Shown one piece after another: positions 2 to 36,255 of a stretch of DNA of 64,000 bases. The notes beneath the pieces are model-generated. The model had not been told where the DNA came from and made no database searches. It saw only the letters and a list, made by a program, of their open reading frames with translations. Made by a program: the position numbers and the translations under genes. Where the stretch lies: assembly GCA_002110465.1 (NCBI GenBank), contig NEED01000027.1:1-64000 (forward strand), in the 5' to 3' direction. How positions within the stretch are numbered: the first letter of the stretch is position 1; every line of letters starts with the position of its first letter. Source of the stretch: an unicellular cyanobacterium SU2 (GTDB lineage Bacteria > Cyanobacteriota > Cyanobacteriia > Cyanobacteriales > Microcystaceae).

Positions 2-178
2 GTAGGTAACTTAAAATCCATAACTAGTCGTCGTTTGAGGTCTGAATTTCCAGAATTAGCTGATGTTTATAAAAAATCAGTTTTATGGAATGAATCGTAT
101 TTCATTGCCAGTTGCGGAGGTGTAACATTATCGCAACTAAAAGAATATGTTGAAAATCAAAAAACTCCTAATGGATAA
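2..178 (+). CDS. IS200/IS605-type TnpA transposase, C-terminal end (runs off the window)
   Basis: An open frame enters from the left edge and ends at a stop at 176-178, giving 58 residues. The segment contains SYFIASCGG and LKEYVENQ, the usual C-terminal signature of Y1-HUH single-strand transposases of the IS200/IS605 group. The tyrosine in LKEYVENQ is the likely nucleophile of the last helix (family knowledge). The 5' part lies outside the window, so I cannot tell whether the gene is complete. The hairpin just downstream (221-273) fits the subterminal right end of such an element. No tnpB partner is visible on this side. Confidence 0.8.
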   Translation, partial: VGNLKSITSRRLRSEFPELADVYKKSVLWNESYFIASCGGVTLSQLKEYVENQKTPNG

Positions 179-4879: not shown

Positions 4880-5197
4880 GACTTCTAAAATATGTAATTA
4901 TGGAGAATACCTATAGGCAAAGTAATGGGTCGAGATTTTGTGTGATTGTCAGGTTTACCTTTGTCTTTAATTTATGGGACTTTTAGGGGTGCTAAACTTG
5001 TTTGAGATTCCCTATGACACACTTGAGATGGGAATTTTGCTTAAGTCCCATTAGCGTCAAGCAGCATCTAATGAGATAATAGGTCTGATTTTTGATAGCT
5101 TACTAAATAATAGGTCAGCTTTAACAGTCTGATAGCTCAAGTTGTATTGTCCGCTATCAGCCTACCCTACTTACGAAAACTTTAGGAGAACCTTACA
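4880..5197. other. Intergenic region upstream of psbZ
   Basis: A 318-base gap between the divergent GST and psbZ genes. It must hold both promoters. The only element I can place is the psbZ ribosome-binding site AGGAGA at 5184-5189. I see no repeat or small gene. Confidence 0.5.
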
Positions 5198-5386
5198 ATG
5201 TCTATCATCTTCCAAATTGCTTTATCGGCTTTAGTCCTCTTTTCCTTTGTTATGGTGATTGGTGTTCCTGTAGCTTATGCCTCACCTCAAAACTGGAATC
5301 AGTCCAAACCTCTACTTTATATTGGGTCTGCTATTTGGACTGTTCTCGTTATTGTTGTAGGCGTTTTAAACTTCTTTGTCATTTAG
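5198..5386 (+). CDS. psbZ: Photosystem II reaction centre protein Z (Ycf9)
   Basis: A 62-residue thylakoid protein with two transmembrane helices (about 3-27 and 38-60) joined by a short polar loop, [11 protein letters not shown], that is diagnostic of PsbZ. It sits at the periphery of the photosystem II core beside CP43 (family knowledge). The start has a good Shine-Dalgarno AGGAGA eight bases upstream. It is followed after 155 bases by ribH on the same strand, an arrangement I know from other cyanobacteria. Confidence 0.96.
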
Positions 5387-5407
5387 TTTTTCTTAGATGC
5401 AAGCAAG

Positions 5408-5439
5408 TCCCTACCTAAAGCAAAATTCAAAGGTAGGGA
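5408..5439. terminator. Hairpin downstream of psbZ
   Basis: A perfect 9-base stem, TCCCTACCT (5408-5416) with AGGTAGGGA (5431-5439), and a 14-base loop. No T-run follows, so it may be an RNA-stabilising 3' hairpin or partial terminator that separates the abundant psbZ message from ribH. Confidence 0.5.
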
Positions 5440-5479
5440 TACAAACCTCAATAATAGATAAACTGATAACTAATACAGG

Positions 5480-5497
5480 GGTCAATAGCTGTTGACC
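5480..5497. repeat. REP-like hairpin, copy 1
   Basis: GGTCAA (5480-5485) pairs with TTGACC (5492-5497) around TAGCTG. The wider string AGGGGTCAATAGCTGTTGAC is closely related to the copy at 46704-46727, which suggests a dispersed palindromic repeat. Confidence 0.5.
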
Positions 5498-5541
5498 TCT
5501 ACCAATAAAAAATAACTGTCAAACTTACTGAAATTTAGCTC

Positions 5542-6135
5542 ATGACAACGTTCGAGGGAACTTTTACTCAAGATCCATCAACCTTCCGTTTTGCTATTGT
5601 CATTGGTCGTTTTAATGACCTGGTGACGGAAAAACTACTATCTGGTTGTCAAGATTGTTTAAAACGCCACGGCATTGATGTTGATCCTAACGGCACTCAA
5701 GTTGATTATGTCTGGGTTCCAGGGAGTTTTGAAGTGTCTTTAGTCGCCCGTCAACTCGCCCTATCTGGTCGTTACAATGCTATTATTTGCTTGGGGGCAG
5801 TGATTCGCGGACATACTCCCCACTTTGATTATGTAGCCGCAGAAGTTGCCAAAGGAATCGCGGCGGTAGGTTTTCAAACAGGAGTTCCGGTTATATTTGG
5901 GATTTTAACCACTGACACCATGCAACAAGCTTTAGAAAGAGCAGGAATTAAGAGCAATTTGGGCTGGAATTACGCCCTCAATGCCTTAGAAATGGCGAGT
6001 TTAATGGGGCAAATTCACCAGCAAGTTCCCTCCTCGATGTACCAGGGGAATAATACTCGCACCTTACCTGTTTCTTCCCACAATCCCCCTATGGTTCGCG
6101 AATCTTCCCCTGAAGTTTCAGAACTCCAAGAATAA
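5542..6135 (+). CDS. ribH: 6,7-dimethyl-8-ribityllumazine synthase
   Basis: Condenses 5-amino-6-ribitylamino-uracil with 3,4-dihydroxy-2-butanone 4-phosphate, the penultimate step to riboflavin. Visible motifs are [50 protein letters not shown] with the catalytic His loop, and [20 protein letters not shown]. At 197 residues it is longer than the usual ~155. The extra 35 residues form a Ser/Pro/Asn-rich C-terminal tail (from about 162), which is probably disordered and common in cyanobacterial RibH. The start is ATG 5542. Confidence 0.95.
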
Positions 6136-6186
6136 TTATGGACTCATGAGTCGTCACCAACAATTGTTCAGAAGTGACCACGGACA

Positions 6187-7839
6187 TTATTGGTCTTCTT
6201 GGTCTGAGGGGGCAAACACGGGACAATATCCCTCTGGGGTAACTTTAAATCCATAGAGGGGCGATTGAGAATTCCAGCACCGTTGACCGCGATAATGTAA
6301 GCACGTTAGACAACAATCGAGGTCGCTAACTGTTCGACTTTGACTGCTTTGATTCAAGAGTTCACGCTGAGAAATCCCTCGTAAGACCAATTCTTCTCCT
6401 TGCCAACGAGCTTCGACTAATCCGGTATCGGCAAACTGTCGCCAACGGGGATCTTGATTGAGTCCTTTGGGTAACGTTAGAGTAATGTTCGTCTCTAATT
6501 CGTTTAACTCTCCTTCATAAACCGTTGGTGCGGGAGGAGCCGGTTGAATAAATTGCTCTCCGATAGGCAGTTCGACTAAAGTCCCTACGGCCGGAGAATG
6601 TAATTGATAGCGATTACGGAGTTCTTCTAAATTCGTTAAATCAGCCAAATAGGTGGGGGAACCATGAACAAAAATAATGTGTTGGGGTCGCAAATTGTGG
6701 ATCAGTTGGGTTGTATTGCGCCCATCGCTATGCTCGGCCAAAAGATAGGTGTCTAAATGAACCGAAGGCGATCGCGTTAATTCTAGAATCTCAGGGGAAT
6801 TAGGTTCTAAGGTAGATTGAGGTTTTTCAGGTAACAAAATCAACCAAGACCCCGACATTAAATACCCTTCTTGGTGGAGACGCGCTACATCATCTGTCAG
6901 AACAATACAAGGCGGTTGTCCTAATACCCCTCTTTGTTGAAGAGTTAAACGACGTAATCGAGGACAAATCCGCTCATCCCAAAATAGAGGCTGATGTTTT
7001 GCAAAATTTTGTACTGATAGGGGAAATTCTGGTAATAAATCTAGGTAGATATCACAGGCGTGAGCGACATTTCCATCCACCCAAATATCTAAATCTCGTC
7101 CCGTGAATTGGTGATGGGAGCGCAAAAGTTTCAAAATTTCTTGACCTAATCCTAGGGGGGGAACCGGTAGTAGCACACTTTGTCCCTGAGCCAAAGACTC
7201 ATAAATACGCTGCATCAGGTGTTTTTCTTGCTGACGGCGGTGAGGATGACGGGTCGTTCCATAACTTCCTTCAATAATGAGGATATCAGGAGATAACCCC
7301 CGTAAAGCTTCAACAGACAACCCTTCTACCAGTTGTAGGTTAGATAGGGAAAAATCTCCTGTATAGAGGACTTTATAGGTTCGCTGAGGGGTTCGATAGC
7401 TTAGAAGAGTGGCTGCTGCCCCTGGCAAATGACCGGCTGGTAACAATTCAACCGTTAAATTTTTGAAGAGTTCAACGGGCGATCGCCATTTGAGGGGGTG
7501 ACAGAAATTCTTCTGACTTAATGGTTGTTCTGGCCAATTTAAAGGAAGCAGTTGCCGCGTGACTTCACTTCCATAGATAGGGAGATCAGGAAATGCTTCA
7601 TGTAACGCTAATAAGCCCCGCGCATGGTCTCCATGGGCATGACTACAAAAAACCCCATCAGCCGGAGGTTGAGCCTGAGTCAGTAGAGGGTCAATATTGG
7701 TTAATCCGCAATCAAGCAAAATACGATAAGGACCCATTTGAATTTGCAAACAAACTCCTTCTCGATAATGACCAACTCCATAAGGAAAACAGTACAGGTC
7801 GGTTGGATAAGGATCAGAAGTTAGAGAGCTTCTACTCAT
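6187..7839 (-). CDS. Metallo-beta-lactamase-fold hydrolase with beta-CASP-like insert and Cys-rich tail
   Basis: A 550-residue protein. The MBL core has the zinc motif CSHAHGDHARG near residue 66, a second histidine in AGHLPGAAATLL, YTGDFSLS, and a late HGSPTYLADL. The middle section (ILIIEGSYGTT, QSVLLPVPPLGLGQEILKLL, then LLAEHSDGRNTTQLIHNLRP) follows the beta-CASP pattern of RNA- or DNA-processing nucleases such as CPSF73/RNase J relatives. The last 45 residues contain CCLTCLHYRGQRCWN and YCPVF, a likely Fe-S or zinc site. I infer a nucleic-acid hydrolase, but no substrate is visible. It is monocistronic, with start ATG 7839. Confidence 0.75.
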   Translation of the reverse strand: MSRSSLTSDPYPTDLYCFPYGVGHYREGVCLQIQMGPYRILLDCGLTNIDPLLTQAQPPADGVFCSHAHGDHARGLLALHEAFPDLPIYGSEVTRQLLPLNWPEQPLSQKNFCHPLKWRSPVELFKNLTVELLPAGHLPGAAATLLSYRTPQRTYKVLYTGDFSLSNLQLVEGLSVEALRGLSPDILIIEGSYGTTRHPHRRQQEKHLMQRIYESLAQGQSVLLPVPPLGLGQEILKLLRSHHQFTGRDLDIWVDGNVAHACDIYLDLLPEFPLSVQNFAKHQPLFWDERICPRLRRLTLQQRGVLGQPPCIVLTDDVARLHQEGYLMSGSWLILLPEKPQSTLEPNSPEILELTRSPSVHLDTYLLAEHSDGRNTTQLIHNLRPQHIIFVHGSPTYLADLTNLEELRNRYQLHSPAVGTLVELPIGEQFIQPAPPAPTVYEGELNELETNITLTLPKGLNQDPRWRQFADTGLVEARWQGEELVLRGISQRELLNQSSQSRTVSDLDCCLTCLHYRGQRCWNSQSPLYGFKVTPEGYCPVFAPSDQEDQ

Positions 7840-7883
7840 AGACTCTTTTAGTCAGCTGTGGCAAGAGAAAAAAAAGGATATAA

Positions 7884-7934
7884 GGTTCAGGGTAACAATT
7901 TTATCGAAAAGTTATTCGTCTTTGCCCTTGAACC
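7884..7934 (-). terminator. Terminator-like hairpin after the 40-residue protein gene
   Basis: GGTTCAGGG (7884-7892) and CCCTTGAACC (7925-7934) form a stem with one bulge and a long loop. On the minus strand it is followed within about ten bases by a run of eight T, which suits intrinsic termination of the small gene at 7948-8070. Confidence 0.5.
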
Positions 7935-7947
7935 AATCCAAGGCTTT

Positions 7948-8070
7948 TTAGTGAGCCGACCCATTGCCATCGTAGTTATCAGAGTCGTAGAATCCGTTTT
8001 TGGTTCCAAAAAAGAGGCTCGAAAGAATAAATAAACCGGTCAGAATTGCTATAACTAATTTAACATCCAT
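7948..8070 (-). CDS. Short single-helix membrane protein, 40 residues, conserved type
   Basis: A complete small gene: ATG at 8070, stop at 7948-7950, and a Shine-Dalgarno GGAG about ten bases upstream on the minus strand. The product starts MDVKLVIAILTGLFILSS, a single membrane helix. It ends in a polar tail, GTKNGFYDSDNYDGNGSAH, rich in Asp/Asn/Gly. The look is that of the small thylakoid proteins of cyanobacteria, and I believe similar unassigned proteins occur in other genomes, but I cannot match it to a named photosystem subunit. The terminator-like hairpin at 7884-7934 follows it. Confidence 0.7.
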   Translation of the reverse strand: MDVKLVIAILTGLFILSSLFFGTKNGFYDSDNYDGNGSAH

Positions 8071-8276: not shown

Positions 8277-10214
8277 TTAAGAGTTCACCACCTGTTGAAA
8301 AGAGTCCTCCGTCGGTTCATCGATAGGGGAAGCAATGGGAACTTCTTCGACTTCTGGTAAGGGTTCTACGATCAACTCCTTAGAAGATTTAATTCCACCC
8401 GAGAGGCGTTTGAGGAGTTTAGGACGAGGGTCATGGAGAAGATAAATAATTTCATCATCTTGTTGCCAGTCTTGAGTTGCCTTAACCACTTGTAAACTTC
8501 CTTGTCGTTTGATTAACAGGGGTAACAGTTCTCCAGCCCGAATCAGGGCTTGAAAATGGGCTTGTTGCAACGACAGTCCAGGTTCTTTAAATTGGGTTTT
8601 CCCTAACTTGATTTGTTCTTCTCTTAAGTATTGATTCCAGGTTTTAATTAATTGTTGATCGACAAAGGCCGCATTAACTTTAGTTTTATTACTCGTAGAA
8701 TTATTAGGGGTATTACTCGGAAAGACAGCAAATACCCTCGGAGGTTGGAATTCCTCCACGGCTCGCTGGGCTAGAACCAGATTTACCTCTCCATTACTGG
8801 TGAGAGCCATAAAATTCCCCATAGAATGAATCCCTGCTTGTTCTAAGGCGTCTGGGTCGAGTCCACTGCTTTGAAACACTGACAATCCTTCAGCCTCAGC
8901 TTGCTGACAAGCTTCTGGATCGGTGTCAATTAACACCACAGATTCTCCCTGTTGTTGAAAGAGTCGTCCGATTAAGCGTCCAAGGTAGTTACATCCGACA
9001 ATTACCGCCCCTGTTGCCTCTAAAGAATTAATTTTTAATGCCTGAGCAATCCAACGGGCTGATAATCCTTGAACAAAGACGGTCATCATAATGGTTAGAA
9101 ACACTAAGGCTTTAATGGACTCGCCCCCGTTAATTCCTTTTTCGGTTAGCAAAATGGCAAATAGGGAAGCTACAGAAGCTGAAACAATTCCCCGTGGAGC
9201 AATCCAAGCTAAAAACAGTTTCTGTCGCCAGTTGAGATCGCTGTTTAGTGTACATAAAGCGACACTAATGGGTCTGATTACTAACATTAAAGTAAGAACT
9301 GTTAAAACACTTCCCCATCCCAAGGCAAAAATACTGTCAATTGACAAATCAGCCGCCAACAGGATGAAAAGGACTGAGACACACAAAACTGTTAATTGTC
9401 CTTTAAACCGCCTCAATAAACGTTCTTCTGGGATAGAAGAAGCCCTAACGACAATCCCCGCGACAACAGTAGCCATTAATCCCGATTCACTGCGAGTGAG
9501 TTGAGCTAACCCAAACAGTCCCCAGACTCCGGCTAAAACCACCAAATTTTTTAAGTCTTCTGAGAGAAAACTCGTGTTTTTTAGAATAAAGCCCAGTAAA
9601 GCTCCACTGATTCCCCCAATAATTGCCCCAAGGCCTAGTCGCAAGAGAACACCACTAAAAATTTCTACTGGACTGGCATTACTGTTCAGAATTGTGTCTA
9701 AAACCACCACGGCTAGGATAGCTCCCACCGGATCAATGAGGACTCCTTCGCTTTCAAGAAGGGTTGCTACTTGACGATCAACTGAGACCTGTTTCAGTAA
9801 GGGACTAATCACTGTCGGGCCAGTAACCACCACCAACGCTGCGTAGAGAAAGGCAATAGACCAGGGAAATTCTGCTAACCAATGGGCTGCCATTCCCCCA
9901 CCAATTAAGGTAACAAGGATGCCAATGGTTACGAGGTTTTGTAAGCTGCCTGATACCCGTCCTAGATCCCGTAATTCCAGGCTTAATCCCCCTTCAAACA
10001 AAATAATGGCCACAGATAAGGCCACCAATACTTCTAGCCCCACCCCTAATTGATGAGGATGGAGAAAGTTTAGGACATCAGGTCCGAGTAAAATCCCAAA
10101 CAGAAGCAAAAAAACAATACTGGGGACTTTGAAAAATTCAGCCGTTACTTGGGCAGTAATACCTGCAAGAACAGCGATAACGATTTGCAGGGTCAGTTGA
10201 AACGATCCTTCCAT
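8277..10214 (-). CDS. Na+/H+ antiporter (CPA family) with C-terminal RCK/TrkA-N domain
   Basis: A 645-residue membrane transporter exchanging Na+ or K+ for H+. About 12 hydrophobic segments fill residues 1-390, including ALSVAIILFEGGLSLEL and LESEGVLIDPVGAILAVVVL. The latter carries the paired acidic/Asp residues typical of CPA ion-binding sites. From about 398, GAVIVGCNYLGRLIGRLFQQ starts a Rossmann RCK/TrkA-N domain that gates transport by nucleotide or ligand binding, and a TrkA-C-like part follows. The acidic tail ends in Pro/Glu repeats. It is divergent from the glycosyltransferase at 10522 across a 300-base region with no other gene. It is close to the NhaP/NhaS2-type antiporters of cyanobacteria, but I do not assign a number. 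Confidence 0.88.
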   Translation of the reverse strand: MEGSFQLTLQIVIAVLAGITAQVTAEFFKVPSIVFLLLFGILLGPDVLNFLHPHQLGVGLEVLVALSVAIILFEGGLSLELRDLGRVSGSLQNLVTIGILVTLIGGGMAAHWLAEFPWSIAFLYAALVVVTGPTVISPLLKQVSVDRQVATLLESEGVLIDPVGAILAVVVLDTILNSNASPVEIFSGVLLRLGLGAIIGGISGALLGFILKNTSFLSEDLKNLVVLAGVWGLFGLAQLTRSESGLMATVVAGIVVRASSIPEERLLRRFKGQLTVLCVSVLFILLAADLSIDSIFALGWGSVLTVLTLMLVIRPISVALCTLNSDLNWRQKLFLAWIAPRGIVSASVASLFAILLTEKGINGGESIKALVFLTIMMTVFVQGLSARWIAQALKINSLEATGAVIVGCNYLGRLIGRLFQQQGESVVLIDTDPEACQQAEAEGLSVFQSSGLDPDALEQAGIHSMGNFMALTSNGEVNLVLAQRAVEEFQPPRVFAVFPSNTPNNSTSNKTKVNAAFVDQQLIKTWNQYLREEQIKLGKTQFKEPGLSLQQAHFQALIRAGELLPLLIKRQGSLQVVKATQDWQQDDEIIYLLHDPRPKLLKRLSGGIKSSKELIVEPLPEVEEVPIASPIDEPTEDSFQQVVNS

Positions 10215-10521
10215 AGGCTTAGTTCAGTGGCCGGCAATTTTTAAAAGCATGATTACTATTGATCGATGACCTCTAGTTTTCAATGAATAACTTATTGCAG
10301 CCTAAAATTCCCTTTAAATGTTAAAACAATAGGAATTTACGGTTTGATAGTTACTCTGGGTATTCTAACATTTAGATTCTAGAAGCCGTCATTTACTCAG
10401 TAACGAAATTGAAGGATACACTGATCATCGGTGTTACATCCTAAATTTTGTCATAGATTCAGCTTCTCAAGAACACTCGATCCCTCCAGTGTTCTTTGTG
10501 CTTTTTATTAATCACTCTAAG

Positions 10522-12147
10522 ATGAATCATCTCACATTTGTTTGGCATCAATCACAAAATCAACGACACCGAGAAAATAATTGGCAGGAATTTTTGATTG
10601 GAACTGGCTTATTTTTAGCTGCTTTGTTCCTGTTTAGTTTTAATTTAGCCTTTCCCTTGCTGAATGGGCAAGAAAGTGTGGTCGCTCAGGTTGCTAAAGA
10701 AATGGCTCACCATTCTCTGTTTTCAGGGGAATGGCTTTTTCCGACCCTTTGGGGTGAATCCTATCATCATAATCCCCCTTTGGGCATTTTCTTGATTTCT
10801 CTTACCTATATTTGGGGGGGAGTTAGGGAGGAGACAACCCGCTTGTCAGGGGTAATACTGACTGCCCTTTCTATTCCTCTACTGTACGGTCTCGGACGGG
10901 AAGCGTTCGTCAGACGAATGCCCGCCTTGTTTGGTGCTTTGATTTTTTTAACCCTTTTTCCTGTGGTGCGTCAAGGGCGGTTGGCTTTGTTAGATGGAGC
11001 CGTAATTTGTTTTGAAATCCTGACAATGTGGTGTGTTTTGCGATCGCGTCGGGATCTCCGATGGTCGGTTGGCGTGAGTTTGAGTCTTTCGTGTTTACTC
11101 CTAACTCAAGGAGTGATGGGCTTATTTTTGAGTCTTGTTATCCTCTTGTTTTTGTCCTGGGATACCCCGCGACTGTTAACCTCTGGCTATTTTTGGCTGG
11201 GGATTATTCTGGGGTTAGTACCTGCGATCACTTGGTATGGTTGTCAATGGGTTTCCTATGGTCCTTCATCAATCGAGGGCATCTTTCTAGTTCCTTTTGA
11301 AACATCTCAAGGAATGTTTCAAGGATTTTGGGGACTCTACGGAGTAAAATTTGTCGCCTTGTCCTTACCTTGGTTCATTTTTGCCTATTCTGGCCTTCAG
11401 TTAGCTAGAAAATCTTTAATCTGGGGATGGGCAAAGTTAATTTTAGTTTGGGTAGGCCTTTATTTAGTCATTTTTACTATATTGCCTGTCTCTGGGGTCA
11501 GCTATCTGATGTCTCTTTATCCTCCATTGGCTTTAGCAGGAGGACTCGCGTTAGCCGAAGTGTTTGATAGACCAAGTGAAGAGCCTTATCCTAAATGGTG
11601 GAGAATAGCTTTATTGATTTTATCAGGGTTAGTGAGTCTGGTTTGTCTAAGTCTTTGGCTGAATTTTCCCCTAGATCTTAGGGATTTATCTCATCAATTT
11701 TCCTTAATTCTGGTTTTGGTTGGGATTGCTTTGACTTTTAGCCTAGCGGCCATTCTCATATCTCAGCGTAATCCTCAGTTTATTGCTATCTTGTTTTGGG
11801 GAATGTATGTTTCGTGGATGTTGTTAGTCACTTCTCCCTACTGGACTGGGGAAATTTCATCGGGGAATTCTATTCAACTTTTAGCACAGACGTTACAAGA
11901 TAGGGTTCCTCATGGTCAATTAGTTTATGCTGATTTAGCCGAAGAAAATCCGGCGTTAAATTTTTATAGCGATCGCCGTATTATCCCAACGAGTCCTGAA
12001 ACCCTTTTGCGATATTGGCATACTTTACCTGATCCCTATCTTCTAATTACCTTAGAAACTTGGCAAAAACTCTCCTTAGAATATGTTCATCCCTTAGATG
12101 AGGTTTTCCCTAATTGGTATTTGATTACTAGAATGCAAGACTCATAG
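10522..12147 (+). CDS. GT39/ArnT-type membrane glycosyltransferase
   Basis: An integral membrane protein of about 541 residues with roughly 11 helices. It transfers a sugar from a polyprenyl-phosphate carrier to protein or lipid on the periplasmic side. After the first helix the loop reads PLLNGQESVVAQVAKEM, the equivalent of the catalytic D/E-containing loop of the PMT/ArnT fold, and ESYHHNPPLGIFLIS matches the KPPL element of that fold. The C-terminal soluble part (residues ~440-540) contains YSDRRII and is small. The start could be GTG 10489, but ATG 10522 precedes a more typical N-terminus. The acceptor is unknown. Confidence 0.8.
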   Translation: MNHLTFVWHQSQNQRHRENNWQEFLIGTGLFLAALFLFSFNLAFPLLNGQESVVAQVAKEMAHHSLFSGEWLFPTLWGESYHHNPPLGIFLISLTYIWGGVREETTRLSGVILTALSIPLLYGLGREAFVRRMPALFGALIFLTLFPVVRQGRLALLDGAVICFEILTMWCVLRSRRDLRWSVGVSLSLSCLLLTQGVMGLFLSLVILLFLSWDTPRLLTSGYFWLGIILGLVPAITWYGCQWVSYGPSSIEGIFLVPFETSQGMFQGFWGLYGVKFVALSLPWFIFAYSGLQLARKSLIWGWAKLILVWVGLYLVIFTILPVSGVSYLMSLYPPLALAGGLALAEVFDRPSEEPYPKWWRIALLILSGLVSLVCLSLWLNFPLDLRDLSHQFSLILVLVGIALTFSLAAILISQRNPQFIAILFWGMYVSWMLLVTSPYWTGEISSGNSIQLLAQTLQDRVPHGQLVYADLAEENPALNFYSDRRIIPTSPETLLRYWHTLPDPYLLITLETWQKLSLEYVHPLDEVFPNWYLITRMQDS

Positions 12148-12470
12148 TCCCTTGTTATTTTTAATTGCTAAAACTCAGTAGAGGGAGAACTTTTTTTTGT
12201 TAAGGGAATAATTAGGGTTTTAGCCACTTATCATCAGTCCTATTTTGACTTTGGCGATCGCTTAAACTCACATCTTGCACCTTCGATAAAACTAGCTAGT
12301 GAGGATAGGCAATAGGCAATAGGCAACAGGATTTTCTTTTGATTGTAACTGCTTAAGAATTGATTTGATTTCTTTTGTTGTTGAGTTTTTCTTTGAGTTT
12401 TTCTGTCCTAGTGCCAAGATTTTAGTCAACCTTTCAGAAAAGTTTTCTCTCTACTAAAACGCTTATATAA
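12148..12470. other. Intergenic region before the restriction cassette
   Basis: A 323-base gap with no supported gene. It holds one HIP1 site (about 12254) and a short tandem repeat of ATAGGCA at 12305-12329. The N-terminal part of the damaged McrB-like gene should lie here, but no frame gives a recognisable sequence, so it appears to have been lost. Confidence 0.5.
12305..12329. repeat. Heptamer tandem repeat
   Basis: Three near-perfect copies of the heptamer ATAGGCA end in a variant. Short tandemly repeated heptamers of this type are common between cyanobacterial genes. Confidence 0.6.
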
Positions 12471-13485
12471 AACGCGGAAGATATCAAAGCTTCGCAAGAT
12501 AAACAAAAAGAAGATTTAGAAAAGAAAGCTAAACAATTAGAACCTTATCGAAGCCTATTGCCAGAATCAGAAGAAGATGAAGAAATCAATAAAATTCAGT
12601 TAGTTTATTTACCTAAAAACTTTGGCGATGAGTGGACAATTCAATTGCAAAATGATGGCTTATATGTAACAAAACAAATTACTAATAGTTATTTAATCTC
12701 AATTTTTAGTGCTTTATATTTAGGGCGTTTAGTTTTACTTAACGGAACAGTAGGCGTAGGAAAAACAAGCATTATTAAACATTCAGCTCAGCAACTCTTT
12801 TAGGAGGTAAATCTAATATTATTCCTGTACGTCCAGCATGGCTTGATCCTTCTGATTTATTAGGATTTTATGACCCTTTACAAGAAATTTTTCTCCTGCG
12901 CCTTTCTTAAGTTCGCTTAGTGAAGCCAATAAAAACACCAGCAAATTGCATTTAATTTGTTTAGATGAATTAAACTTAGCGAAGATTGAAAACTATGCCT
13001 CTGATGTACTTTCACCGCTAGAATACTCTCGAAAAAATAGAGATGATAGACTAATACTATATTCCCAAGACATTTGGAAAAATCTAGACGAGGAGTGTAA
13101 ATATCTTCACGGAAAAGAAGATTTTAAAAGCCAACAACGATTAAAAATTATTCAAAATCTATTTAAAAACTATCCTGAACATAAATTTGCAATTCCCCGT
13201 AACCTAGTATTATTAGGAACTCTCAACTCTGATGAAACGACTTATGATTTAAGTCCAAAATTAATTGATCCTTCTTTTATTATCACTTATCCACCAGCAG
13301 ATTTGACAGTTAATTTTACTAAACAATCAAATTCAGATAGTCAGAGTAATCAATCTATCTCTACTCAATCAATCGTTGATAAAATTGACAGCTATCAAGA
13401 TACAATCTTTGAAGAACAAGAAAAACAAGAAAAACCGAACATCTTATCAAATTGGAATATCATAGTTGAATGGAAGAGGATCTGA
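12471..13485 (+). pseudogene. McrB-like AAA+ NTPase gene, 5'-truncated and frameshifted twice
   Basis: Three successive frames together spell one McrB-type AAA+ motor. Frame one (after a stop at 12468) runs to 12803 and has Walker A, LNGTVGVGKTS. Frame two, from about 12800, reads VRPAWLDPSDLLGFYDPL, the conserved McrB segment. Frame three, from about 12898 to 13485, has Walker B, LICLDELNLAKIENY, and sensor 1, LVLLGTLNSDETT. Adding one T to the T-run at 12797-12800 and one to the T-run near 12890 would join all three. No start codon or N-terminal recognition domain is found upstream. As read, the gene cannot make a full protein. It overlaps the nuclease gene by 16 bases, which implies translational coupling when it was intact. 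Confidence 0.8.
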
Positions 13486-14750
13486 CAAATATTGCTCTAA
13501 TTAATCAAGAACGTCGAAGCAAAAAAATAGAAATTAATCAAACTATTAAACAACTAATAGAGTGTGCTAATTGGTCAAAAAAAGCAAGAAAGTCTAAATT
13601 TTTACAAGGTATTCAAACTCCTAAAAGTTTGCCTAATTTTTCATCTCGTTTACAAGGAGCTTCAGGATATGGTAGCATTTTTGCCAAATTTTCCAATTCT
13701 TTAGGAGGTGTATTAAAACCAATTGAGAAAGTTATTTATCTTTTACAGCATACATACGAAGGAAGAATCAAAACAACTAATGAGCTTTATGAAATTTGGT
13801 GTTTTATCAAGCTTTATACAGCATTTATTGTTTATGTTAATATGAAACCTGCCGAGAATACTTTTTTATTCGATAAAATTAAGATAACCAATAATGAAGT
13901 CAAAATACCCAATATTAAATATATTTTAGAATTTAACTATAATACAGATTATCGCCTTGTTTTTTTGTATGATGCTAAAGTGACGTATAACCATAATGGA
14001 AATCAAGGCTACAAAAGACCTGATATTCGTATTGAGTTATTACACAATCACCAAAAAATCAAACAATTTTGTTTTGATGCAAAATATAAAAACTATAGCG
14101 ATTGGGATATTGGACATTTTATAGATGATGTTTTAGGAATAGCACGAGATAGTTATTATTCTTTGCTCCAATCAAAAGCTAGTTTTCTACTTCATACTGA
14201 CCCAAAATTTGACTATTGGGGAGAAAAACCTTTAACTCGACTTTCGGGAATTAAGTCTTATGTTCTGGACAATAATTTGATAAAAGGTTCTATAAATAAA
14301 AGCACAGGAAATTATAAGACTTATGAATTAGTATCTAATGTTGAAATAAATCCGAGCAGATTTTTAGAAAATCAGTCTAAAGGATATTGTGGACATAAAT
14401 ATGGAGCTATTTGTCTGCAACCGAATGAAACATCAGAAAAACAAATTAAAAGAATTTTAAGATTGATTTTGCAATATCACTGTTCTTTTGAATCCCTATG
14501 TCCTTCTTGTGGACATCAAGGGATAGAAAAAATATACAGTTGTAAAAGAGCAGGAAAGTGCTATTCTTGTGAAAATTGTCAAGAGTTTTGGGTAATCAGC
14601 CATTGTCAATCATCTATTCATCATCCATTAATTAAATTCAAAGATAGCTTTCATCAAAAATCGAATCCTAATTCTCAACAGTGGCTTTATGATTGTCCCG
14701 TTTGTGGCGATCAATTGCTCTCCGAAAAATCCCTTGTCTCGTGGAACTAG
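13470..14750 (+). CDS. McrC-like PD-(D/E)XK nuclease (PDDEXK_7/DUF2357 type) with C-terminal zinc ribbons
   Basis: An uninterrupted 426-residue protein, the presumed cleavage partner of the McrB-like ATPase. Residues 105-115 read ELYEIWCFIKL, the start of the PDDEXK_7 core. The catalytic pattern is RPDI (D185) and FDAKY (D203, K205). The C-terminal 90 residues add Cys pairs (C344/C347, C367/C370, C409/C412) that look like zinc ribbons, which is unusual for McrC. The family cuts DNA, often modified DNA, when driven by the GTPase/ATPase partner; that role is inferred here. The start ATG overlaps the end of the upstream gene. AT-rich, Lys/Asn-rich codon use differs from the flanking glycosyltransferase and glnA and suggests acquisition by transfer. 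Confidence 0.75.
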   Translation: MEEDLTNIALINQERRSKKIEINQTIKQLIECANWSKKARKSKFLQGIQTPKSLPNFSSRLQGASGYGSIFAKFSNSLGGVLKPIEKVIYLLQHTYEGRIKTTNELYEIWCFIKLYTAFIVYVNMKPAENTFLFDKIKITNNEVKIPNIKYILEFNYNTDYRLVFLYDAKVTYNHNGNQGYKRPDIRIELLHNHQKIKQFCFDAKYKNYSDWDIGHFIDDVLGIARDSYYSLLQSKASFLLHTDPKFDYWGEKPLTRLSGIKSYVLDNNLIKGSINKSTGNYKTYELVSNVEINPSRFLENQSKGYCGHKYGAICLQPNETSEKQIKRILRLILQYHCSFESLCPSCGHQGIEKIYSCKRAGKCYSCENCQEFWVISHCQSSIHHPLIKFKDSFHQKSNPNSQQWLYDCPVCGDQLLSEKSLVSWN

Positions 14751-14836: not shown

Positions 14837-16258
14837 TTAGACATCGTAGTACAAAGCAAACTCATAGGGATGAGGACGTAACCGCAGAGGGTTTACCTCA
14901 TTATCGAGTTTGTACTCAATCCAATTTTCAATGAAATCTGTAGTAAAGACTCCGGTATCGGTTAAAAATGCCTGGTCTTTTTCGAGAGCTTCTAACGCTG
15001 CTTCAAGGGAACCAGGAGTCGAAGGAATCTTGCTTAACTCTTCAGGGGTAAGATCGTAGATATCCACGTCTAAAGAGTCACCTGGATCAATTTCATTCTT
15101 AATCCCGTCAATTCCTGCACACAGCATCGCTGCAAAGGCTAGGTAAGGATTACAGGTGGCATCAGGACACCGGAACTCTAACCGCTTAGCTTTGGGGTTA
15201 GGGCCAGATAAGGGAATACGAATAGACGCTGAACGGTTTCCTTGAGAATACGCTAAGTTTACAGGAGCTTCAAACCCAGGAACCAGACGCTTATAAGAGT
15301 TGGTGGTAGGATTGGTGAACGCCAATAAAGCGGGAGCGTGTTTAAGGATACCACCGATGTAATTTAAAGCCATCTTGCTCAAATTCGCGTAGCCATCACC
15401 CCAAAACAAAGGTTGTCCGTCTTTCCAGATCGACTGGTGGGTGTGCATCCCAGAACCATTATCGTTAAACACGGGTTTGGGCATAAAAGTTACGGTTTTA
15501 CCATATTTCTTAGCCACATTTTTGATGACATATTTGTAGGTCATCAAATAATCTGCTGCTTCAATGAGGGTAGCAAAACGAAAACCCAATTCATTTTGTC
15601 CGCCTGTAGCCACTTCGTGGTGGTGTTTCTCAATGGGAACCCCACATTTAGCCATAGTTAGCAGCATTTCTGTCCGCATATCCTGTAGGGTATCGGTTGG
15701 GGATACGGGGAAGTAACCCTGTTTGTACCCAGGCTTATAAGCGAGGTTTCCGCCTTCTTCTTCTCTTCCAGTATTCCAACGTCCTTCTACACTGTCTACA
15801 TAGTAATATCCTTTATTCTCAGTTTGGTCAAAACGAACGTCATCAAAAACAAAGAATTCGGCTTCAGGTCCAAAAAAGGCAGTATCGCCAATTCCTGTAC
15901 TTTTAAGGAATTCAACCGCCTTAGCTGCAATGGTGCGGGGATCTCGGCTGTACCATTCCCCTGTACGAGGTTCTTTAATACTACAAACCATACTTAGAGT
16001 TGGTTCTTCATAGAAGGGATCGATCCAAGCAGTGGTAGGATCAGGAACCATAGCCATATCAGATTCGTTGATGGCTTTCCACCCCCGAATACTCGAACCA
16101 TCGAAGGGAACCCCGTCAACAAAGGAACTCTCATCAATTTGATCGTAGTAGAATGAGCAATGCTGCCAAATCCCTGGAGTATCAATGAATTTCAGGTCAA
16201 TAATTTTTATGTTGTTGTCTTGAACCATTTTCAAGACTTCTTGAGGGGTTTTAGCCAT
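14837..16258 (-). CDS. glnA: Glutamine synthetase type I
   Basis: Makes glutamine from glutamate, ammonium and ATP; dodecameric, cytosolic, the entry point of the GS-GOGAT cycle. The 473-residue length is standard. Motifs include [31 protein letters not shown] (metal-binding glutamates), [12 protein letters not shown], and the [12 protein letters not shown] and [19 protein letters not shown] blocks. The start has an SD GGAGT six bases upstream. Upstream lies a textbook NtcA-activated promoter (16295-16336), so it should be induced under nitrogen limitation. In cyanobacteria this enzyme is also controlled by small inactivating proteins (family knowledge); none is encoded nearby. Confidence 0.98.
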
Positions 16259-35729: not shown

Positions 35730-36255
35730 ACAAAATAAGCTTTTTTATACTTTTTTAATGGCTACAATTTAATGGCTACAAAACCCCCTTCTATTTACAT
35801 TTTTATCATATGTTAGAAGTTTCGCATTGATAAAAGAAACATAATATGCAGGTCTTCTTTAGAAGCTCAGCCCTTCGGCTCCGCTACGCGGATCGCCAAA
35901 GAAAAAAATTGACAAAAGAGACAAAAGATAAAGATGATTATCAGATTCGATCTCGAAGAGATCTGCTTCGCAGTGCGCAAAAGAAGAACAGCCATAAGAT
36001 TTCAAAGTAAAGCATCAACAGCCCATATAATCTAGACCAATACACATATTTTCTATTATCAGAGCCAAAATATACAGGTTTTTGTCGTTACTTCTATAAA
36101 GTTATCTTTCTTCATCTTTTGCATTAAAACTTCTCAAAAAGTCTGTTTTTTGTGTAATATCTAAAAAAATATTAGTATTATTAAAATATAAAAGAAAATT
36201 TTTGGCACTATCCTATGCAGAACGGATAAAAGGTCAAATTTTCTAATGAATAAAT
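35730..36255. other. Intergenic region with REP-like palindromes
   Basis: 526 bases with no gene. A palindromic GC-rich island at about 35870-35896 (CCTTCGGCTCCGCTACGCGG) resembles the island at 55512-55562, and another short GC-rich palindrome lies near 35949-35975. The rest is very AT-rich and leads into the two-gene cassette at 36256. Confidence 0.5.
35870..35896. repeat. GC-rich dispersed palindrome, copy 1
   Basis: CCTTCGGCTCCGCTACGCGG followed by ATCGCC. It shares GGCTCCGC and TAGCGGATCGC/ACGCGGATCGC parts with the island at 55512-55562. It stands out against AT-rich surroundings and is typical of mobile palindromic repeats of cyanobacteria. Confidence 0.55.

Follow-up and report, generated by a model that had tools for sequence, protein, structure and literature searches.

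A very likely decayed McrBC-like cassette in a unicellular cyanobacterium and its relatives fused to a retron-type reverse transcriptase

In the classical McrBC system of E. coli, an McrB AAA+ protein works with a PD-(D/E)xK partner, and McrB docks McrC. The closest described relatives of the locus reported here are the Type I-A CoCoNuTs (CnuB + CnuC). In the relevant sections of their description (Bell et al. 2024, PMC11090510), these systems have McrB-like proteins with an NxD motif and a helical insert separating Walker B from this motif, together with a CnuC partner combining PD-(D/E)xK and a zinc ribbon; zinc ribbons are published there for CnuC of both Type I-A and Type II CoCoNuTs. The term "reverse transcriptase" has 0 occurrences in the main text of PMC11090510. 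A further similar system is the PADLOC candidate PDC-M26 (M26A/M26B), on which no publications were found in the literature searched. On the retron side, types I-C, XI, and XII have an effector fused to the reverse transcriptase (RT) and an RNA element upstream.

The window analyzed here is a stretch of 64,000 nt, positions 1–64000 of contig C27 in the draft genome of a unicellular cyanobacterium (5.24 Mb, 82 contigs). Phycobilisome-like genes are recognizable by eye among the neighbors, and a heptamer repeat (ATAGGCA, 3.7 copies, 12305–12330) occupies the intergenic stretch ahead of the cassette. Between a glycosyltransferase-like frame and glnA lie pieces of an McrB-like AAA+ gene and a 426-aa nuclease frame (Table 1). 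We read this locus, with considerable confidence, as a decayed NxD-branch two-gene McrBC-like (type IV restriction-like) cassette, in which cassette and nuclease frame alike are a non-working relic.

In tblastn searches with the proteins of the intact relatives L029 and L028, the AAA+ sequence is split over three frames. The linked pieces reach E values of 2.7e-79 with L029 and 1.1e-65 with L028, and by sequence comparison the window pieces match the relatives far above chance. Fragment 1 spans the end of the charged linker/coiled-coil region to Walker A (∼12744–12770), and a stop closes its frame; fragment 3 holds Walker B (∼12952–12972), an insert, and an N-S-D motif (13225–13233), with homology stopping at 13473. 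An earlier note, made from the letters of this DNA, had recognized an McrB-type AAA+ gene without its 5' end and with two frame breaks. Both points are borne out by the relatives: Walker A, the VRPAWLDPSDLLGFYDPL segment, Walker B, and the N-S-D motif are all present, the alignments with L029 and L028 contain the two breaks, and the relatives have ∼180–230 further residues upstream. In addition, a Pro is encoded at 13270–13272 where 9/9 homologues in an alignment of intact AAA+ domains have Arg. The PADLOC model PDC-M26A matches the AAA+ piece 12946–13485 (2.9e-15). No RT adjoining position 12483 was found in the window copy, whose upstream piece aligns with the non-RT form of the family.

The ELYEIW, RPDI, and FDAKY motifs and the three CxxC pairs named in the earlier note were all located in the 426-aa frame. 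D185, D203, and K205 of this frame are encoded at 14022–14024, 14076–14078, and 14082–14084. Pfam PDDEXK_7 scores above its cut-off there (24.7 vs 22.1 bits), and PADLOC PDC-M26B matches the frame at 1.1e-7.

Table 1. Coordinates of the cassette remnant, its neighbors, and features of the RT-fused relatives
Feature	Record	Position	Strand	Remarks
Glycosyltransferase-like frame, 552 aa	Window	10489-12147		Named by eye; flanks cassette remnant upstream
AAA+ (McrB/CnuB-like) fragment 1	Window	12483..12803	+	tblastn of L028/L029 CnuB-like protein
AAA+ fragment 2, next frame, IIPVRPAWLDPSDLLGFYDPL segment	Window	12785..12892	+	tblastn, 80% identity to L029
AAA+ fragment 3	Window	12886..13473	+	tblastn (match spans 12874-13473) and comparison with intact AAA+ domains of 9 homologues
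Deletion join	Window	13467..13485	+	Loss of ∼102 C-terminal residues from AAA+ and ∼285 N-terminal residues from the nuclease
426-aa open frame, read as C-terminal remnant of McrC/CnuC-like nuclease	Window	13470..14750	+	
ELYEIW	Window	13782-13799	+	PD-(D/E)xK active-site motif
RPDI	Window	14016-14027	+	PD-(D/E)xK active-site motif
FDAKY	Window	14073-14087	+	PD-(D/E)xK active-site motif
Zinc-ribbon-like tail, three CxxC pairs	Window	14499-14510, 14559-14570, 14694-14705	+	
glnA	Window	14837-16258	-	Named by eye; other flank of cassette remnant
RT-AAA+ fusion	L013 (G103)	10136-12409	-	
RT-AAA+ fusion	L027 (G390)	10100-12361	-	
RT-AAA+ fusion	L032 (Nostoc sp. HK-01 plasmid4, AP018322.1)	5731-7992	+	
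Upstream element, 109 nt	L013	12597-12705	-	187 nt before RT start
Upstream element, 100 nt	L027	12401-12500	-	39 nt before RT start
Upstream element, 100 nt	L032	5592-5691	+	39 nt before RT start

Relatives of the cassette are few. The 426-aa protein matched 6 of 386 cyanobacterial genomes, strongly in its own genome, G185, and G103, and weakly (E 4e-5 to 5e-4) in G293, G070, and G345. All three weak matches were rejected: that in G293 is an ordinary 317-aa frame, sugar-nucleotide-epimerase-like by eye, and the alignments in G070 and G345 run across stops. With the full-length G103 protein as query, matches were obtained in 8/388 genomes of the order, 3/217 of the family of G103, and 2 of 72,556 plasmid records, the match to G105 in the search of the order having E 2e-4; G775 has the coordinates of the Nostoc plasmid record and was taken as the same record (L032). 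The same query matched 0 of 50,697 phage records, and no relative was confirmed in 69 stretches of viral contigs. A scan of genome contigs (2 loci in the scan) added a relative in Peptococcaceae bacterium 1109 (G815), the only match among 299 genomes of its Bacillota-side phylum.

Among these loci, eight carry an intact AAA+/nuclease pair (L012, L013, L015, L027, L028, L029, L032, and L033), a pairing that supports the earlier proposal that a type IV (McrBC-like) module of variant form has lost its motor in the window. Over the nuclease part that the window retains, L029 is the closest to it (46% identity). PDI and FDAKY are present in 8/8 nuclease homologues and the NxD motif in 9/9 AAA+ homologues, where it follows Walker B after 84–95 residues in 8/9 and after 58 in L033. 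The zinc-ribbon tail, regarded in the earlier note as an addition whose conservation should be checked, proved to be a family trait: three CxxC pairs occur in 8/8 intact homologues, which rules out a gain by the window copy.

The family thus shares with Type I-A CoCoNuTs a two-gene McrB/McrC-like pair, the NxD motif, and a PD-(D/E)xK nuclease with a zinc ribbon, and its Walker B–NxD spacing is consistent with the published insert. The other hallmarks of the type are an N-terminal CSD-like OB fold and a coiled coil in CnuB and an IG-like domain and DUF2357 in CnuC, and none of them was demonstrated in this family. No Pfam CSD/OB domain was found in six AAA+ N-termini at E values up to 10; these N-termini have a charged segment (45–58%), and a crude heptad test, in which 2–55 out of 200 shuffles scored as high, did not establish a coiled coil. 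Pfam DUF2357 matches the L029 nuclease at E 0.17, below the cut-off, and was absent from L012. A profile of the nuclease family retrieved no McrC chain from the PDB at E values up to 10, and the AAA+ profile retrieved McrB chains at 2e-4 to 5e-4, with Midasin scoring better (1.7e-17). We therefore call the family Type I-A CoCoNuT-like, which falls short of proven membership.

The resemblance to PDC-M26 is likewise partial. In a test that covered the AAA+ proteins other than L030 and L027/L032, PDC-M26A matches L028 at 6.5e-62 and L012, L013, L029, L033, and L015 at 3.7e-58 to 2.8e-46, and PDC-M26B matches all nucleases tested, the profile matches being partial. The partner measures 694–737 aa vs 853–857 aa in the PDC-M26B protein/model, a shorter length from which we infer that it probably lacks an insertion of the published type. 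A full-length PDC-M26A/M26B pair (2.9e-158 and 9.9e-104) occurs in G064 (L031, 4193–8790), a genome of the same genus as G103; it is related only distantly to the window family (E 1.6e-6). Compared with classical McrBC, the family has the same AAA+ and PD-(D/E)xK pairing and differs in having NxD instead of NxxD and a zinc-ribbon tail; by Pfam, no N-terminal DNA-binding domain of the classical type was found in it.

The intact loci fall into two forms. Five have a charged helical region as the N-terminal module of the AAA+ protein, and in the other three (L013, L027, and L032) a retron-type RT takes the place of the AAA+ N-terminal part, with the zinc-ribbon nuclease gene downstream. In the fused proteins, the RT covers residues ∼9–359 and the shared AAA+ part starts at ∼residue 385; the frame is open throughout, the three proteins are mutually 83–85% identical over ∼755 aa, and YADD and VTG motifs are present in 3/3. 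Pairwise dN/dS among the three loci is 0.40–0.46 for the RT, 0.28–0.30 for the AAA+ part, and 0.28–0.33 for the nuclease. The L013 RT part matches the PADLOC models RT-Protease_XI (1.9e-126), RT-TIR_XII (3.4e-117), and RT-Toprim_I-C (7.8e-117), the closest solved relative of the fused RT is the Ec67 protein (3e-53), and the L032 fusion is annotated as "RNA-dependent DNA polymerase".

These three loci, and only these, resemble retron types I-C, XI, and XII in having an effector fused to the RT and an RNA element upstream; unlike in those types, the fused part is an McrB-like AAA+ domain and the nuclease is a separate gene. No fused-type model in PADLOC or NCBIfam covers the RT-AAA+ fusion, and NCBIfam retron models remained below their cut-offs. 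In the parts of PMC8934634 that concern RT neighborhoods, AAA is listed among the domains occasionally found near RT genes, and McrA, not McrB, is named as fused to group II intron RTs. The open-access articles searched contained no description of a retron-McrBC hybrid, and the one held by the RT-fused relatives is apparently undescribed. The contig of the L027 fusion also carries a match to the cyanobacterial RNA Yfr1 (Rfam, 61.9 bits, 66–130, plus strand).

The element upstream of the fused RTs has inverted-repeat ends that pair over 14 bp in L013, 14 bp with one G-U in L027, and 12 bp in L032, and its minimum free energy is -38.4, -36.9, and -34.5 kcal/mol, respectively. The L032 core folds with z = -5.38, and 0/200 shuffles were as stable; a small annotated hypothetical gene (5376–5615) overlaps the first 24 nt of the element in this record. 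Rfam has no match to the element. Searched against 386 genomes, the L032 element was found at 14 places in 12 genomes: a full match in G103, a match in G148 to the opposite end of the element, and 12 matches of 29–33 nt to a single core at 88–93% identity, with one-genome E values of 2.6e-6 to 7.9e-4 that are weak when taken singly. Eleven of the 12 core places were opened, and all lie upstream of, and on the same strand as, a retron-RT-like frame (that of L070 is cut short, and L062 and L071 precede the same RT). The fused RTs are 50–56% identical to seven RTs of core places. Given this recurrence of the core upstream of other retron RTs and the similarity of those RTs to the fused ones, we regard the element as very probably the msr/msd RNA of a retron. 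Short pieces of it, searched as exact strings, were absent from the window, L012, L015, L028, L029, L030, and L033.

A further retron RT (387 aa, 5117–6280, minus strand) is encoded elsewhere in the genome of the window, in a locus (L073) at 36000–46000 of contig C2. Two tandem msr-like cores lie there near 6400–6432 and 6845–6877, 445 nt apart. Downstream of this RT, one frame of 194 aa contains the string RNIASH, HEPN-like by eye, and another of 221 aa contains an RRM_1 domain (4.4e-8).

As these comparisons show, the intact relatives encode an AAA+ protein whose N-terminal module varies and a ∼700-aa partner in which an N-terminal half is followed by the PD-(D/E)xK nuclease and the three-CxxC tail. 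By analogy with McrB and McrC, the AAA+ protein may form an NTP-driven ring docking the N-terminal half of the partner. The N-terminal module would sense infection, through RNA or ssDNA in one form and through retron msDNA in the other; sensing would turn on the motor, which would drive or license the nuclease, and the nuclease would then cut nucleic acid, probably causing abortive infection. In the fused form, msDNA would act as the trigger sensor. We give even odds to the full reading that a McrBC/CoCoNuT-like sensor was exchanged for a whole retron, yielding an undescribed retron type whose msDNA gates a restriction motor.

On another reading, the family would be ordinary McrBC cleaving modified DNA, with the RT of the three relatives an unrelated gene fused by accident; the McrB-like and PD-(D/E)xK domains would fit this. 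It appears unlikely: 9/9 have NxD instead of NxxD, the RT frame has stayed open over its full length in three records at the dN/dS given above, and a retron-like RNA element is retained upstream of the fused RTs. The natural exchange of an N-terminal module for a probable retron offers a way to test directly what this part contributes in CoCoNuT-like motors: should msDNA be able to substitute for it, this part would be a trigger sensor, not a DNA-specificity domain. With this family, the effectors known from fused retrons (Toprim, protease, and TIR) would be joined by a motor-nuclease one.

The window copy itself, almost certainly a dead defense cassette, matters little. Its decay can be traced in some detail. 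The earlier note described an intact 426-residue nuclease overlapping the AAA+ gene by 16 bases. The overlap of the two ORFs (12946–13485 and 13470–14750) is there; the intact gene is not. Intact homologues measure 694–737 aa (8/8), the window nuclease aligns to them only from residue ∼283–290 onward, and on these alignments the 426-aa frame corresponds to ∼60% of such a protein, counted from the C-terminus, which rules out an intact nuclease gene. In the tblastn decay map, AAA+ homology ends at residue 498/600 of the L029 AAA+ protein and nuclease homology begins at ∼residue 286/737 of its partner. Because AAA+ homology stops just where nuclease homology starts, a single deletion must have joined both genes, removing ∼1.17–1.2 kb judging by the spacing in L029. 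On this mapping, the 16-base overlap is a deletion scar of fused ends, and an operon overlap is ruled out.

Since the deletion accompanies a lost 5' end and two frame breaks, the window cassette is almost certainly dead, and with the nuclease half predicted to dock gone, along with the two ends and the reading frame of the motor, the remaining frame would be a relic. That this frame has no breaks in 1.28 kb, as the earlier note stressed, is correct, and the contrast with two breaks in ∼1 kb of AAA+ sequence is not significant, with a rough estimate of (1000/2280)^2 = 0.19.

Of 65 columns without variation among six intact homologues, the remnant keeps 59; this comparison omits the near-duplicates L027 and L032 and begins after the first 12 aligned positions. 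Its retention lies within the range of the intact homologues themselves, each scored on the columns that the other five share without change (65/65 to 65/85). Either the loss is recent or some constraint remains. The latter would agree with a second use suggested for the nuclease after motor loss, namely a live stand-alone zinc-ribbon protein with 426 open codons and intact motifs. We find this slightly harder still to credit than the chance fusion: the frame starts at the deletion join and lacks the ∼285 N-terminal residues present in 8/8 homologues, no stand-alone nuclease homologue was seen among the loci opened, and a retention of 0.9 is equally given by recent loss. The proposed second use is accordingly unsupported, and a non-working relic remains the preferred reading. 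That the breaks are assembly or base-calling errors in a cassette intact in the organism is highly improbable even for an 82-contig draft with short T runs near both frame breaks, because the ∼1.2-kb gene-fusing deletion lies within a single 110 kb contig, the missing 5' end and the change of an invariant Arg to Pro are no base-calling errors, and the missing parts occur nowhere else in the assembly.

Both L029 proteins were searched against the genome of the window, and neither a second copy nor the lost parts were found. The full-length G103 protein had no match in six congeners, one of them 87% complete. In two congeners (L049 and L050), the glycosyltransferase and glnA neighbors point toward each other with 1965 and 1190 bp between them, and 17 family proteins gave no tblastn match in these intergenic stretches at E values up to 0.1. 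At the DNA level, the congener stretches have short AT-rich matches to the window, the best of 49 bp (E 5.8e-4) on the other strand at ∼12579–12626, with a weaker one from the second congener at the same place (E 0.025); we take these as probable low-complexity matches. A second decayed copy was found in G446 (L030, 4786–7572), with the AAA+ gene frame-broken near 5034 and the nuclease half of the partner missing, so that loss of the cassette recurs.
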